33,603 nt of DNA, from the IMG/VR virus record IMGVR_UViG_3300031140_000020, positions 1 to 33,603 of that record, one strand, 5' to 3'. Below the pieces are notes generated by a model, which was not told the origin of the DNA, did not search any database, and saw only the letters and a list, made by a program, of their open reading frames with translations. Each line of letters starts with the position of its first letter. Within the stretch, counting starts at the first letter, position 1. Of this stretch, positions 11,809-31,797 are shown piece by piece. The stretch is from a virus. Both the position numbers and the translations under genes were made by a program.

Positions 11809-12782
11809 CTATTACAGCAGAACAAATTAAGTTTAGAAAAGGCAAGATAGGGGCCAGTAGTATGGCTCAGGCAGTTGGTTACGGTTACGGAGGTAAAACC
11901 CGTGCCGCTCTTTTTCATTCTATGAAAGGAAATACACAACCAGATCCAGAATCAATAGCAATGAGAGTTGGAAACTTTATGGAGGCCTTCATTCTTGATG
12001 AGTATAACCGCAGTACGGACAGGGGTGGAATCGAGTATCCTCAGACCCAAGTCCATAGTGACGAGCCACGTTTGATCTGCCATTGCGATGGCATTACTAC
12101 GAAAACTACAACTCCCCGCCTGATTGAAATTAAGAATGTTGGCCCCCATATGAAGGACGCGTGGAGAGATGGAGTACCAAAGTATGTACACATCCAAGCG
12201 TGTGGACAATCAATGCTTACAGAGATTGAAAGAGTTGATGTGGTAGCTTATTTTGGAGGCAGTGACTTAAAGGTTTATGAGTTGCAGTTTACTCCTCTAG
12301 ATCACGCCATGTTATATGATAACTTGAAGGACTTCCTTGCCTACCTCGATAAGGATGAAGAACCACCTCATGTGCAGGCAGACCTGCCTATGCTAGCTGC
12401 GTATTTTGGCTATAAAGATGAGGCGATTGAAGCTGATGACACGATCATAGCTGATGCAGTTTTGTTAGCTAAGTTGAAACGTGATTCAAAAGTGTGTACA
12501 ACGGATAAGCTAGCAACAGACGAGTTGGAATATAGGATTAAAGAGTATATGCAAGACAAGGCTTATCTTATTAACAAAGAAGGTGTTCCATTGTTCACAT
12601 GGAAACAGGGAAAGGAGAAGACGACAATAGATTGGGAGGCTGTAGCTAGGAAGCTCTGGATAACAGGACATACCAACAACTTTAATGACCCAGAGTGGTT
12701 AAGCGCTTGCCAATCAAATACAACTACAAAATCAGGATCACGATCTTTTCTATGTAAAATCAAAGGAGTAAATCATGGTTAA
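11805..12782 (+). CDS. YqaJ-type viral recombinase exonuclease
   Basis: Start at the ATG at 11805, which overlaps the previous stop; an in-frame TTG at 11799 is less likely. The PD-(D/E)xK core of lambda-exonuclease/YqaJ proteins is visible: GASSMAQAVG near residue 16, Glu60 in GNFMEAF, Asp95 in CHCDG, and Glu108-x-Lys110 in LIEIK. It would digest one strand of linear double-stranded DNA and supply 3' tails to the annealing protein encoded next. The pair with ERF and SSB is a standard phage single-strand annealing module. Length of 325 aa is normal for the family. Confidence 0.88.
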   Translation: MTITAEQIKFRKGKIGASSMAQAVGYGYGGKTRAALFHSMKGNTQPDPESIAMRVGNFMEAFILDEYNRSTDRGGIEYPQTQVHSDEPRLICHCDGITTKTTTPRLIEIKNVGPHMKDAWRDGVPKYVHIQACGQSMLTEIERVDVVAYFGGSDLKVYELQFTPLDHAMLYDNLKDFLAYLDKDEEPPHVQADLPMLAAYFGYKDEAIEADDTIIADAVLLAKLKRDSKVCTTDKLATDELEYRIKEYMQDKAYLINKEGVPLFTWKQGKEKTTIDWEAVARKLWITGHTNNFNDPEWLSACQSNTTTKSGSRSFLCKIKGVNHG

Positions 12783-23006: not shown

Positions 23007-23678
23007 TTAGTGTATTGGGATAACTATATTTTTGGCTTGACTATCAGTACCGCAACAAAGGCCGCAATCTTTACATTGGATAGAATGGGTAAAGTTGGGG
23101 CATACGATCTCATCGGACGCGAGTTTATTCGCGGCATACTTAACCGTGCGAAATGTTCTAAATCCTAGTTTATTAGCTTTAATCTTATCATTTATATTAT
23201 GTACGCTGGCCATGCACCAAGATTTAAGGAAGTTTGACTTCTTATCTTGCCAATTATGAGTATATCCCAGCAATCGTTTGAATTTAGCTCTAATAGATAG
23301 GCTTACTTTTTCAGGTCTTGCGGCTGGGTCACCGTAGGCACCGTCACGACCTAAATTATAGGCTTTATCCGGTTTAGTTACTAGTAACTTGCTTTTTGTT
23401 TTATGGATAGCATTAGCCGCAAAGCCGCAATTAACATAGCATGGTTGGTCTTCAATTGGCTTATCCTTATGTAATAGAGGACGCAATGGGCAGTTGCCAC
23501 AGATTGCTTGATCTAGTCCAGACTTCAAAGAATCGGTAGGTTTTTCGTTTGAACAAAGGATAGTAATTTGTGGGATGTTACCAGTTTTGATGTTAGTTGA
23601 TTTCTCTGTTAACGTAGAATAGATATCATCTTTGGTATATTCTGATTGACCTGCCCATAATAACGATGTATTCGCCAT
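23007..23678 (-). CDS. Conserved Cys-rich phage protein (DUF7227-like)
   Basis: AAGGAGGATAAACC precedes the ATG. The 223-aa product has Cys60-x2-Cys63, Cys80/Cys84, GAYGDPAA (113-120), GYTHNW (138-143), a WCMASVH segment and a final block CPNFTHSIQCKDCGLCCG. From memory this combination marks a family found in many phages and some archaeal viruses, described only as a domain of unknown function. The Cys clusters suggest metal or Fe-S binding. It is the largest gene of the leftward operon. Confidence 0.6.
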   Translation of the reverse strand: MANTSLLWAGQSEYTKDDIYSTLTEKSTNIKTGNIPQITILCSNEKPTDSLKSGLDQAICGNCPLRPLLHKDKPIEDQPCYVNCGFAANAIHKTKSKLLVTKPDKAYNLGRDGAYGDPAARPEKVSLSIRAKFKRLLGYTHNWQDKKSNFLKSWCMASVHNINDKIKANKLGFRTFRTVKYAANKLASDEIVCPNFTHSIQCKDCGLCCGTDSQAKNIVIPIH

Positions 23679-24943: not shown

Positions 24944-25636
24944 ATGATAAGGGAGCGGTGCGAGATATGGGGAAATGTCAAGGGAAAAGTGAGAGGGATA
25001 AAGCGTTATGTTCCAAGAAACACAGCGGTCGGTGCTTCGGTGAGTAAAGGTAAACCTATCTCTAAATTATATCATCTATCCTTCGACCAACTACCAGCAT
25101 TAGAAGAACAGTTAATGAAATTAAAGTCTCGATCGAATGAAATGCGACGGGGAATTATATCAGCAATGGCGAGTGCGATAGGATTGTGTGACGTTGCTCT
25201 ATTAGCTGACAGAATGGGCTTAGCCCAATTGGGCAGGGAAAGTTTGGCACGTAACTTGCAAGCAAGCAACGATCATGCCGCAACAAATGGCACGGACATT
25301 GCAAGGTGCAAGGATGATGCCGCATCTCTGGCACGGGACTTGCAAGGGGATTCTGGCACGGGTATTGCAGGGAGAAGTGAGGGGGTGGGGGGGGGTATAA
25401 ACAAGCCGCTACTTAATTTATTTGAGGATCCCTCATACCTTGACTCACCTATCTCCCCAAAAAAAAATTCCATTCAAGAGACATATGCCGATTTTGGCTT
25501 TAGAGTGGTAGAGATGTTAGAATATTGGAATGAAATTAAGTTAGAGGATGCAGAATGGACAGAAAGTTACAAATCATACGTATTAAAGAACAAAGAAAGC
25601 CGGAGCGATCTAGTTCAGCGGCTGAGCGAGTTATAG
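24944..25636 (+). CDS. Unrecognised protein gene that carries the TGGCACG-N4-TTGCA array
   Basis: 230 aa from ATG 24944; no in-frame alternative is better, though the ribosome site (AAAGGG) is distant. Residues 1-90 are basic then helical (KLYHLSFDQLPALEEQLMKL, RRGIISAMASAIGLCDVALL). Residues 100-150 are encoded by the repeat region and are low-complexity; the C-terminal 70 residues are an acidic helical domain (FGFRVVEMLEYWNEIKLEDAEW). No family recognised; a DNA-binding protein that acts on its own internal repeats (as lambda O does) is one idea. G9 at 25387-25395 and A9 at 25459-25467 make the frame prone to slippage. A second frame is open at 24931-25047 (ATGs at 24931 and 24940) with three Cys. 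Confidence 0.55.
   Translation: MIRERCEIWGNVKGKVRGIKRYVPRNTAVGASVSKGKPISKLYHLSFDQLPALEEQLMKLKSRSNEMRRGIISAMASAIGLCDVALLADRMGLAQLGRESLARNLQASNDHAATNGTDIARCKDDAASLARDLQGDSGTGIAGRSEGVGGGINKPLLNLFEDPSYLDSPISPKKNSIQETYADFGFRVVEMLEYWNEIKLEDAEWTESYKSYVLKNKESRSDLVQRLSEL
25245..25260 (+). promoter_or_regulatory. Sigma-54-like site 1
   Basis: TGGCACG-TAAC-TTGCA. In the codon phase that gives SLARNLQ. Perfect at all twelve fixed positions. Confidence 0.6.
25288..25303 (+). promoter_or_regulatory. Sigma-54-like site 2
   Basis: TGGCACG-GACA-TTGCA. Read in a different codon phase from site 1, giving NGTDIAR. Confidence 0.6.
25329..25344 (+). promoter_or_regulatory. Sigma-54-like site 3
   Basis: TGGCACG-GGAC-TTGCA. 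Same codon phase as site 1, giving SLARDLQ. Confidence 0.6.
25354..25369 (+). promoter_or_regulatory. Sigma-54-like site 4
   Basis: TGGCACG-GGTA-TTGCA. Same codon phase as site 2, giving SGTGIAG. If used as a promoter, the start would be near 25380, leading into the packaging genes. Confidence 0.6.
25381..25395 (+). repeat. Poly-G tract (G5-T-G9) inside the gene
   Basis: The G9 run at 25387-25395 is read GTG-GGG-GGG-GGT. With one G lost the frame meets TAA two codons later; with one G gained it meets TAA after about seven codons. It lies 12 bp after site 4. Confidence 0.7.
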
Positions 25637-27497: not shown

Positions 27498-27663
27498 GTT
27501 GACTGCTGCTCAGCGAACACAAATAGAAGCAGGCCGACACCATGATTTAGAGACGTTAGTGGATGAGCGTACTCAGGAGTTCTGGATCACTATCTGCCAG
27601 ATGCAGGCCCAAATAAGCGCATTAGAGGAGTATGCGGATAGGATGAAGGTATTGCATGAGTAA
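27487..27663 (+). CDS. Small helical protein between Rossmann-like gene and terminase, 58 aa
   Basis: ATG at 27487 with AAAAAGGAACT upstream; overlaps the previous gene by 11 nt and the terminase start by 8 nt. The product is helical and acidic (IEAGRHHDLETLVDERTQEF, MQAQISALEEYADRMKVLHE), coiled-coil like. It is too short for usual gene calling but fills a 158-nt gap exactly. Possibly a terminase accessory. Confidence 0.6.
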   Translation: MPDKLTAAQRTQIEAGRHHDLETLVDERTQEFWITICQMQAQISALEEYADRMKVLHE

Positions 27664-29047
27664 GGATATAATTGCACAGTTACAAAAGTGGCGTGAACGA
27701 CCTGATTTGTTTGTTAAACAAGCTTTAGGAGCAACACCAGAAAAATGGCAGGTCACCGCATTACGATCTATTGCCATTAATGACCGGGTTGCTGTTAAAA
27801 GTGGTCATGGAGTAGGCAAAAGCGCGTTTTTAGCTTGGATCATGTTATGGTGGCTACTTACACGTTTTCCTGCCAAAATAGCCTGTACTGCGCCTACTTC
27901 TCACCAATTAGAGGACGTATTATGGGGTGAGGTAGCTAAGTGGTACAGAAGGCTAGATCCTTCTTTAAAGAGCTTAATTACGGTTAAATCAGACCAAGTA
28001 GTACTTAATGCAGCTCCTAATGAAAGTTTCGCAGTAGCCCGAACAGCTAGAAAAGAGAAGCCAGAAGCGTTTCAGGGCTTTCACTCAGAGAATATGCTGT
28101 TTATGATAGATGAGGCTTCAGGCGTAGATCCTATCATATTTGAGGTAGGAGAAGGTGCTATGTCAACAGCAGGAGCTAAAACTCTGATGACTGGCAATCC
28201 TACTAGAACAAGTGGTTATTTCTATGATGCTTTTCATAAGATGCGTGAGTGGTGGACTACTTACACAGTTTCGTGTAGTGATTCTACACAAGCTACAGAA
28301 GAGTATGTAACGCAGATGGGCCAGAAGTGGGGTACAGAGTCTAACGTGTACTCAGTGCGTGTATTAGGTAACTTTCCTAAGGATGATGATGATTCTATTG
28401 TTTCACGTGCTTTAGTTGAGGCTTCCATTGGGAGAGACATATTCGTTGATAAGTCTGAGCCAGTTATATGGGGCTTAGATGTAGCACGTTTTGGGTCGGA
28501 TAAGACAGCCTTATGTATACGTAAAGGCCGAAAGATAATTGGTAAGATAGAGACTTGGAGGAACAAGGATACCATGCAGGTAGCCGGTATTATTAAAGCT
28601 AAATACGATAAGGTGGCAAATTATGAGCCAGAAAGACCCGCTGAAATTATGGTCGATAGCATTGGTGTCGGAGCTGGAGTCGTGGATAGACTACGTGAAA
28701 TGGGCTTACCCGCACGAGGAATCAATGTTGCAGAGTCAGCGTCTGTCGAGGCTTTGTACCATCGCCTTAGAGATGAACTCTGGTTCAGAGCCAAAGAGTT
28801 CTTTGACGGAAGAGATGTAACAATGGAGGAGGATGAGGACTTAATTGAGGAGTTATGTTCCGTTAAGTACGAATATACCTCATTAGGTAAGCTAAAAGCC
28901 GAGTCTAAGGATGATATGAAGAAAAGAGGCTTAGCCTCACCTGATATAGCAGATGCCTTCTGTTTAACACTAGCAAACAATGTAAGTGTAGGAAATAGCT
29001 CATCATGGAGTAGTAAACTGGCATATCCAGATTTAGGAGATTATTGA
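27656..29047 (+). CDS. terL: Terminase large subunit
   Basis: 463 aa. Walker A is KSGHGVGKS (48-56), Walker B LFMIDEA (148-154) and a TGNPTR motif III (179-184). The nuclease domain shows GLDVARFGSDKTAL with Asp275, IMVDSIGVG with Asp334 and SPDIADAF with Asp433, the usual three metal-binding Asp. It cuts concatemers and pumps DNA into the prohead. Its last bases overlap the TTG of the HNH gene. Confidence 0.93.
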   Translation: MSKDIIAQLQKWRERPDLFVKQALGATPEKWQVTALRSIAINDRVAVKSGHGVGKSAFLAWIMLWWLLTRFPAKIACTAPTSHQLEDVLWGEVAKWYRRLDPSLKSLITVKSDQVVLNAAPNESFAVARTARKEKPEAFQGFHSENMLFMIDEASGVDPIIFEVGEGAMSTAGAKTLMTGNPTRTSGYFYDAFHKMREWWTTYTVSCSDSTQATEEYVTQMGQKWGTESNVYSVRVLGNFPKDDDDSIVSRALVEASIGRDIFVDKSEPVIWGLDVARFGSDKTALCIRKGRKIIGKIETWRNKDTMQVAGIIKAKYDKVANYEPERPAEIMVDSIGVGAGVVDRLREMGLPARGINVAESASVEALYHRLRDELWFRAKEFFDGRDVTMEEDEDLIEELCSVKYEYTSLGKLKAESKDDMKKRGLASPDIADAFCLTLANNVSVGNSSSWSSKLAYPDLGDY

Positions 29048-29574: not shown

Positions 29575-31797
29575 ATGCCACAACGAGGTAAGTCTCCGCA
29601 TCGTGGGGAAAAGATAACAGAAGACGTACTGAAATCCATACTGGACTTTGAGGTACGTGAGGCTTTAGGTAGACATGATGGAGAGCTATCAGAGCAGCGC
29701 AGGAAGTCTATTCGTGCGTATTACGGGCAAAGTATAGGTAATGAGGTAGCAGGTCGTTCCCGCATAGTTACACGTGATGTAATGGAAGTTGTGGAGTGGG
29801 CTATGCCTGAGCTTATGGACGTATTTGCGTCTGATGATGCTGTAGCTCAATTCGTTCCAAATTCAGAAGCGGATGAGCAGGAAGCTAAGCAAGCAACAGA
29901 TTACATTAACCATGTGTTTTTTAATCGGAACAAAGGTTACGAAATATTCCATGATATGTTCAAAGATGCCCTGATGCAGAAGTCCGGCGTTACGAAGGTA
30001 TGGTGGGACGATACAGTTGAAGTTAAACGAGAGGAGTATAGTGGCTTAGATGATCCATCGTTTCAAAAATTGGTATCAGAAGATTCTGTTAAAGTTTTGG
30101 CACATACCGCAACTCCACTTACGGATCAAGAAACAATGCAAGCCCTCGGATTAGAACCGGGTATGGAGTTAATGCTGCATGATGTTGAGATTGAGCGCAC
30201 AAACGATAATGGTAGGATTAGAGTTGAAGTAGTTCCACCTGAGGAATTTCTAGTGTCCAAACGCGCAAAAGGCTTGGACGATGCCGAGTATAAAGGGCAA
30301 AGAATACACATAACTCTCTCTGATTTAGCAGCTATGTATCCTGATACCGACATGGAAGAGATGCGTAGGATGATCGGAGATGATGAACAGGAGTGGGATG
30401 AAGAGTATAATGCAAGGCATGATTTTGATGATGTTTACGTTGGCGAGCGTAATTATGCGGATAATTGGCTAGGTAAGAAGATATGGATTACCGAGTCTTA
30501 TTTGCACGTTGATTGGGACAATGACGGTGTTGCTGAGCTACGTAAGATTACAAAGGTAGGCAATGTAATACTTGGAAATGAAGAAGTAGATGACCATCCG
30601 TTCTCTTTGATAACGCCTATCAAGATACCACATAAGCTGTTTGGTATGAGTTTAGCTGATATTACAATGGACTTACAGGTTACCAAATCTGCCCTATTAA
30701 GGGGTATTTTGGACAATATGTACAACCTGAATCATGGTCGATTTGAGGCTTTGGACGGCAATGTTAATTACGATGATTTATTGACTTCACGCCCCGGCGG
30801 AGTTATTAGAGTTAAGCAAATGGGCGCTATTAGGCGTTTAGATACACCCTCATTACCCAACGGGGGTTTTGAGATGCTAGACGTTGTAGATAAGATGAGA
30901 GATGGCAGAACTGGTATTTCTAAGTTCCGCACAGGTTTAGATACCGACTTCTTGAACAACGCTAAGGCAGGCCCAGTAGATAATCAGATGGAAGCTGCTA
31001 ATGCGCGACTTCGTCTGTATGCAAGAAATTTCAAAGAAACTGGAGTAAAAGACACCTTCACTAAGATGTACCAAACTATGGTACGCCACCAGCAGCATGA
31101 GGACGTTGTTAAGCTACGTGGTAAGTGGACACCTATAGATCCTTCAGCTTGGGCTGGAGAGTGTAATGTGACCGTACAGACGGGCTTAGGGCATGGTGAT
31201 AAAGGTAAGAGAGTACAAGAGATGGCAATGATAGGTCAGCAGTTTGGAATGATGCGACAGGATCCTGAATTAAAAGAGATGGTTACACGTGACAACGTAT
31301 ACCACACTTTTTCGGAAGGGCTGAAGGCTATGGACTATAAAAATGTCGGAGACTTTATTACAGATCCGAAAAAACTTCAACCATATAAGCCACAGCCCGA
31401 CCCGAAAGAAAAAGCAGAGCAGATGAAGGCTCAGCTTGAAATGAAGAAGATTGAGCTAGAAACACAGAAGATGCAGGCTGAGGGACAATTGCAGCAGCAG
31501 AAGCTTCAAATGGAGCAGCAGCGTGGTCAGATGGAAGTGGCTAAATTGCAGATGGAAGCTCAGAATCAAGACACTAAGAACCAAATTGAGGTTGCTAAAT
31601 TACAGGCTCAGTTACAGGGTGAGCAACAACAGAATGCTTTAGAGCATGAGAAGTCTAATATTGAGGTTATGAAGGTACAGGCTGATATGGCTAAGATGCA
31701 GGCTGAGCAGATGCTTAAGGAGAAGGAATTGATTCTTAAGGTAGCTGAGCTTGAATTGGAACGTACTCAAGAGCGACCCATAAAAATAGGTAACTAA
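29575..31797 (+). CDS. Portal protein
   Basis: 740 aa, ATG abutting the previous stop. The N-terminal part RRKSIRAYYGQSIGNEVAGRSRIVTRDVMEVVEWAMPELMDVFASDD is a pattern recurring in podovirus portals, with further blocks KSGVTKVWWDD, VPPEEFLVSKRAK and HPFSLITPIKIPHKLFGMSLAD. It forms the dodecameric vertex ring through which DNA passes. Residues 600-730 are a long Q/K/E-rich coiled coil (KMQAEGQLQQQKLQMEQQRG), probably the barrel that reaches into the head. The length fits large podoviral portals. Confidence 0.88.
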   Translation: MPQRGKSPHRGEKITEDVLKSILDFEVREALGRHDGELSEQRRKSIRAYYGQSIGNEVAGRSRIVTRDVMEVVEWAMPELMDVFASDDAVAQFVPNSEADEQEAKQATDYINHVFFNRNKGYEIFHDMFKDALMQKSGVTKVWWDDTVEVKREEYSGLDDPSFQKLVSEDSVKVLAHTATPLTDQETMQALGLEPGMELMLHDVEIERTNDNGRIRVEVVPPEEFLVSKRAKGLDDAEYKGQRIHITLSDLAAMYPDTDMEEMRRMIGDDEQEWDEEYNARHDFDDVYVGERNYADNWLGKKIWITESYLHVDWDNDGVAELRKITKVGNVILGNEEVDDHPFSLITPIKIPHKLFGMSLADITMDLQVTKSALLRGILDNMYNLNHGRFEALDGNVNYDDLLTSRPGGVIRVKQMGAIRRLDTPSLPNGGFEMLDVVDKMRDGRTGISKFRTGLDTDFLNNAKAGPVDNQMEAANARLRLYARNFKETGVKDTFTKMYQTMVRHQQHEDVVKLRGKWTPIDPSAWAGECNVTVQTGLGHGDKGKRVQEMAMIGQQFGMMRQDPELKEMVTRDNVYHTFSEGLKAMDYKNVGDFITDPKKLQPYKPQPDPKEKAEQMKAQLEMKKIELETQKMQAEGQLQQQKLQMEQQRGQMEVAKLQMEAQNQDTKNQIEVAKLQAQLQGEQQQNALEHEKSNIEVMKVQADMAKMQAEQMLKEKELILKVAELELERTQERPIKIGN

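Follow-up and report, generated by a model that had tools for sequence, protein, structure and literature searches.

Why a phage should carry several consensus binding sites for a bacterial sigma factor inside one of its own genes is the question raised by this viral DNA, a stretch of 33,603 nucleotides that we call the window. An earlier note on the sequence had claimed four perfect copies of TGGCACG-N4-TTGCA, the recognition sequence of sigma-54 (RpoN), with N4 of TAAC, GACA, GGAC, and GGTA. We found these exactly as described: all four lie on the plus strand, start at 25245, 25288, 25329, and 25354, and span 25245–25369 (125 bp), and no further perfect or one-mismatch copy was detected in the 33,603 bases of the window. 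Each copy has the TGGCAC and TTGC elements of a sigma-54 site with GG and GC 10 bases apart, and four perfect sites in 125 bp also make a dense cluster of strong sites of the datA and iteron type. We agree with the note that what is unusual is the repetition of sites, as opposed to a single promoter.

The sites were scored with a matrix of 42 intergenic sigma-54 motifs from Escherichia coli ChIP-seq (PMC4591121). With scores of 17.6–19.8, they outrank 30, 39, 41, and 41 of these 42 motifs (E. coli median 15.7), while the highest score elsewhere in the window is 13.2 and 20 Markov copies of the window peak at 16.6. Because two weaker reverse sites fall between the perfect copies, the layout reads + - + - + +, which is also present in the arrays of other phages. 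The sites are as follows:

25245–25260, plus strand: sigma-54 site 1, TGGCACG-TAAC-TTGCA, exact; score 19.1, ahead of 41 of the 42 ChIP-seq motifs of E. coli
25265–25280, minus strand: degenerate sigma-54-like reverse site, CGGCATG-ATCG-TTGCT; 10.4 with the array matrix and 10.9 with the E. coli matrix
25288–25303, plus strand: sigma-54 site 2, TGGCACG-GACA-TTGCA, exact; score 17.6
25307–25322, minus strand: degenerate, weak sigma-54-like reverse site, CGGCATC-ATCC-TTGCA; 9.7 with the E. coli matrix
25329–25344, plus strand: sigma-54 site 3, TGGCACG-GGAC-TTGCA, exact; score 18.8
25354–25369, plus strand: sigma-54 site 4, TGGCACG-GGTA-TTGCA, exact; score 19.8

The first reverse site is the sole non-perfect match in the window that scores at least 9 with the array matrix, and the second has the orientation and position seen in the alternating arrays of other phages. 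Soon after site 4 there is a nearly pure run of G at 25381–25395 (GGGGGTGGGGGGGGG).

The array lies within an open reading frame (24944–25636) that had been taken for a phage gene, and this held up: the C-terminal 71 residues of its product show 63% identity to a homologue at the edge of contig L101, so we consider it a real gene, and its codon signal, though weak, is best in the annotated frame. No Pfam or PHROG family matched it, and it is itself neither a packaging nor a capsid gene. An AT-rich divergent region directly precedes it, and the terminase genes follow downstream:

24944–25636, plus strand: array-containing gene, 230 amino acids, with a C-terminal homologue in L101
26097–26486, plus strand: small gene in the position of a terminase small subunit (TerS), putatively assigned as such; conserved upstream of the terminase large subunit (TerL) gene in L100–L107, its product having a weak PHROG match only
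27656–29047, plus strand: terminase large subunit (phrog_2, E 4e-47)
29575–31797, plus strand: SU10-type portal protein (PF23899, E 6e-194)

A DnaB-type helicase gene is also present in the window, and no tRNAs were found in it. On the minus strand at 23007–23678 is a gene for a phrog_2554 protein of unknown function, relatives of which occur near arrays in seven loci (L041, L027, L054, L068, L080, L076, and the window).

Arrays of this kind were detected well beyond the window. Searching for same-strand pairs of perfect sites no more than 30 bases apart, we found 88 viral contigs that form 53 groups without shared DNA, and opposite-strand pairs (15 convergent and 16 divergent contigs) bring the total to 112 viral contigs; reversed and permuted control patterns gave 0 and 0 matches in the viral collection. 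The same pair pattern had five matches in 257 Gb of bacterial genomes, at least two of which adjoin mobile-element genes. In these two, from an Alphaproteobacteria MAG (L097) and a Eubacteriales MAG (L096), the pairs are adjoined by a VapE/primase-polymerase gene and a Mom gene, which suggests that prophages or other mobile elements carry arrays too. Because clustering of such sites is exceedingly rare in bacteria, the arrays have the look of a viral innovation, possibly one that serves to soak up the RpoN polymerase of the host or to redirect it. Perfect sites averaged 0.5 per genome in 76 alphaproteobacterial genomes (59 with RpoN), so that one phage genome with four exceeds the typical chromosome of that class. 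Among 50 array contigs, including ones as long as 142–352 kb, the sites of a genome mostly concentrate in a single place, and a control pattern matched 0–1 times per contig.

The arrays range from 2 to about 20 sites, and alternating-strand arrays are frequent. Tandem neighbors are mostly 25–28 bp apart, then 36–38 bp, and spacings under 25 bp are few, as though a footprint set the packing; convergent neighbors are spaced 17–21 bp and divergent ones 23–26 bp. Spacing maxima at about 26 and 37 bp would fit packing on opposite faces of the DNA, but the periodicity is weak in a scan of gaps of up to 30 bp. In contig L057, six reverse sites at 12128–12273 follow one another in exact 26-bp steps and continue past the contig end; five of the six are identical in letters and spacer, a recent tandem growth of that array. 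Many arrays adjoin terminase or portal genes of unrelated types, and in about half of the groups a terminase is absent near the array within the fragment seen. We found no description of phage sigma-54 arrays in a literature search that reached few subscription papers or preprints; these viral arrays of sigma-54 sites form a widespread class that has so far gone unnamed.

The imperfect sites are informative about what reads the arrays. One-mismatch sites are concentrated near perfect ones (63 in 19 kb vs. 25 in 416 kb elsewhere), and three changes, C5>T (21), A15>T (15), and G6>A (11), account for 47 of the 63 (P about 1e-37 against uniform substitution). These same changes are common among E. 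coli sites bound in experiments, and variation within the arrays falls at tolerated positions. Spaced repeats that had lost GG and GC were named in the earlier note as a pattern that would speak against sigma-54; GG or GC is altered in 4 of the 63 one-mismatch sites, which favors sigma-54 instead. The free positions are biased as well, with T at -1, purine-T-T-C in N4, and T after TTGCA, and preferences such as the T before TGGCACG and the T after TTGCA are consistent with sigma-54. Together, the substitution spectrum and the position preferences identify the array motif as that of sigma-54 rather than a mere look-alike repeat. The -24/-12 promoters and intragenic sites of E. coli share their consensus, tolerated substitutions, and near-invariant GG and GC with the arrays, and intragenic binding there includes sites without known promoter function (PMC4591121). 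In contrast, the E. coli sites are single, whereas the viral sites are clustered in groups of 2 to about 20 at 17–46 bp spacing, often on both strands. The match to the E. coli matrix, the substitution spectrum, the recurrence in unrelated viruses, and the absence of control matches support sigma-54, or something of the same specificity, as the reader of the motif, and it is very likely that the array binds sigma-54 itself.

We suggest that the array is a decoy that captures sigma-54 polymerase in closed complexes, and we give this reading a probability of about 0.5. The polymerase forms stable closed complexes that await an AAA+ activator (PMC7057263), so strong sites clustered where no activator is at hand would keep it idle. 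Occupying the -24/-12 sites in this state, polymerase would be held at 4 to about 20 strong sites per phage genome copy, a number multiplied through replication, until the array copies captured the small sigma-54 polymerase pool of the cell and withdrew it from host genes for nitrogen, envelope and phage-shock, motility, and RNA repair functions. Sigma-54 is a low-abundance protein. In E. coli it is bound at about 135–250 sites (PMC4591121), so tens of phage copies with four sites each could compete, although early in infection, before replication, a count of four per genome may not suffice for titration. The hosts would presumably have RpoN, the protein would be bound to the array in the infected cell, and capture, not transcription, would be the benefit; the spacing and the mixing of strands fit capture better than transcription. 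Sigma-54 does play a part in infection: deletion of rpoN in Salmonella changes phage susceptibility through glutamine supply and RpoS (PMC8744999).

Among the rival explanations, an origin by chance, or as a side effect of repeats that the array gene has at the protein level, was rejected and deserves next to no weight. The region is indeed rich in repeats and the gene reads through it, but the sites occupy two reading frames (LARNLQ/LARDLQ and NGTDIA/SGTGIA), and the codon-preserving control called for in the earlier note gave no gene with three or more perfect sites among 20,000 synonymous-codon shuffles (no site in 19,124, one in 863, two in 13). These two results indicate that the DNA, not the protein, is under selection, and the control scans of the viral collection agree in giving zero matches. 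A phage protein (a terminase small subunit, repressor, or replication initiator) might instead bind the array, with the match to sigma-54 arising by coincidence or mimicry. Repeats close to terminase genes are a typical mark of packaging sites or origins, such as lambda cosB and iterons. Yet the same motif, with the substitution spectrum of sigma-54, stands beside unrelated terminases, and the 50 array contigs searched have no sigma-54 DNA-binding domain above the family cut-off. No phage-encoded RpoN-like protein was found among them, the best of several weak matches to the RpoN box being an IS3-type transposase. This explanation is very unlikely. Somewhat less improbable, though still doubtful, is a purely local action, in which closed complexes of sigma-54 on the array would serve as a nucleoprotein barrier or insulator, either in the region that separates early from late operons or close to the packaging end, and would halt read-through transcription, nucleases, or the movement of DNA. 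The density of sites is enough to coat DNA, and arrays often adjoin TerS, TerL, or portal genes of several unrelated terminase types, but the groups without a nearby terminase and the arrays inside coding genes, including that of the window, argue against it.

Real sigma-54 promoters of phage operons, multiplied for output or sensitivity and gated by a host AAA+ activator of the PspF or NtrC type, are the chief rival, which we consider unlikely overall but clearly ahead of the other alternatives. We keep it in that place because of the mostly fixed orientation of the sites in the TerL family of L012 and because of a sister clade. In 80 terminase relatives sampled blind to arrays, 143 of 143 strong sites lie 0.5–2.5 kb upstream of TerL, intergenic between divergent operons and mostly in one orientation. 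One subclade has arrays of 3–6 sites, and its sister clade has mostly one site or none. Where present in the sister clade (L267, L262, L263, and relatives), a single conserved sigma-54-like site stands about 1.5–1.8 kb upstream of TerL; such a site, TTGGCACACCTTCTGCA, is followed by a ribosome-binding site and the ATG of the divergent operon in the one case read closely, and is possibly a genuine sigma-54-dependent phage promoter. The strong sites of the window are all directed at the terminase operon (TerS/TerL), so a promoter may act there, and the density of NtrC-like palindromes is slightly raised around arrays (18 in 43 kb vs. 95 in 385 kb). Against promoters stand the face-to-face and alternating arrays and the tandem spacing of 25–28 bp. 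Across arrays there was no excess of gene starts shortly downstream in the direction of the sites, the single sites of the sister clade being the exception: in groups with a dominant strand, a gene start lay within 150 bp in the direction of the sites in 7 of 40 and in the other direction in 6 of 40. No AAA+ activator domain (PF00158) was detected in the 50 array contigs, and the sites of the window fall within a gene, where no activator site was identified. Of the functions that the earlier note had proposed, state-gated firing of packaging and capsid genes is not supported by the class as a whole, given this absence of gene-start bias, the alternating strands, the lack of an encoded AAA+ activator, and the orientation of the sites upstream of TerL in the 80 relatives, where 120 sites face away from TerL and 21 face it; the sigma-54 specificity on which its ideas rested stands, and a sponge for sigma-54 is plausible. 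Sponge and promoter are compatible readings, as an array could have grown by multiplication of an ancestral promoter.

Capture of sigma-54 polymerase by a DNA decoy would have both precedents and differences among known systems. The E. coli locus datA titrates DnaA, and plasmid iterons and incA titrate Rep. These loci and synthetic transcription-factor decoy sites (PMC7826281) resemble the arrays in that clustered sites lower the amount of free DNA-binding protein, but the viral arrays would aim at a sigma factor, their carrier is a virus, and titration by them is only proposed. T7 Ocr inhibits sigma-54 transcription and blocks sigma-70 as well (PMC7064336), and the arrays would likewise cut sigma-dependent transcription of the host, as Ocr and AsiA-type proteins do; these are proteins that act on polymerase, whereas the arrays are DNA sites. 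It is possible, if somewhat less likely than not, that many unrelated phages convergently evolved a DNA-based anti-sigma device, in which arrays of consensus sigma-54 sites would trap polymerase in inactive closed complexes during infection and keep RpoN-dependent stress or defense genes off without an inhibitor protein. AsiA-type anti-sigma proteins are the corresponding phage inhibitors of host transcription. If the decoy reading is true, control of RpoN would be a common battleground of infection, and a sigma factor could be inhibited or harnessed by DNA alone; if the sites are promoters instead, they would add an unexpected sigma-54-dependent layer to phage gene control. The arrays are easily found by sequence and may help to connect uncultured phages with RpoN-using hosts.

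Within its own lineage, the window phage shares the array with the same virus from another sample, a contig 99.98% identical. The other relatives that could be checked have no array, so the trait appears sporadic; the contigs of the closest relatives stop short of the array position. The nearest named relatives are distant (terminase at most 55% identical, portal about 32%), and four named phages considered as carriers, Lau218, Providencia PR1, C72C1, and Manatee Spring phage, had no arrays in the regions checked. Elsewhere among the loci, L095 (Konateibacter massiliensis) and the 142-kb viral contig L050 are apparently one element, with the same gene lengths. Here, paired TGGCACGTTTTTTGCA sites lie 19 bp ahead of a gene whose 335-residue product has a weak HTH match, and the pair looks like a doubled sigma-54 promoter.
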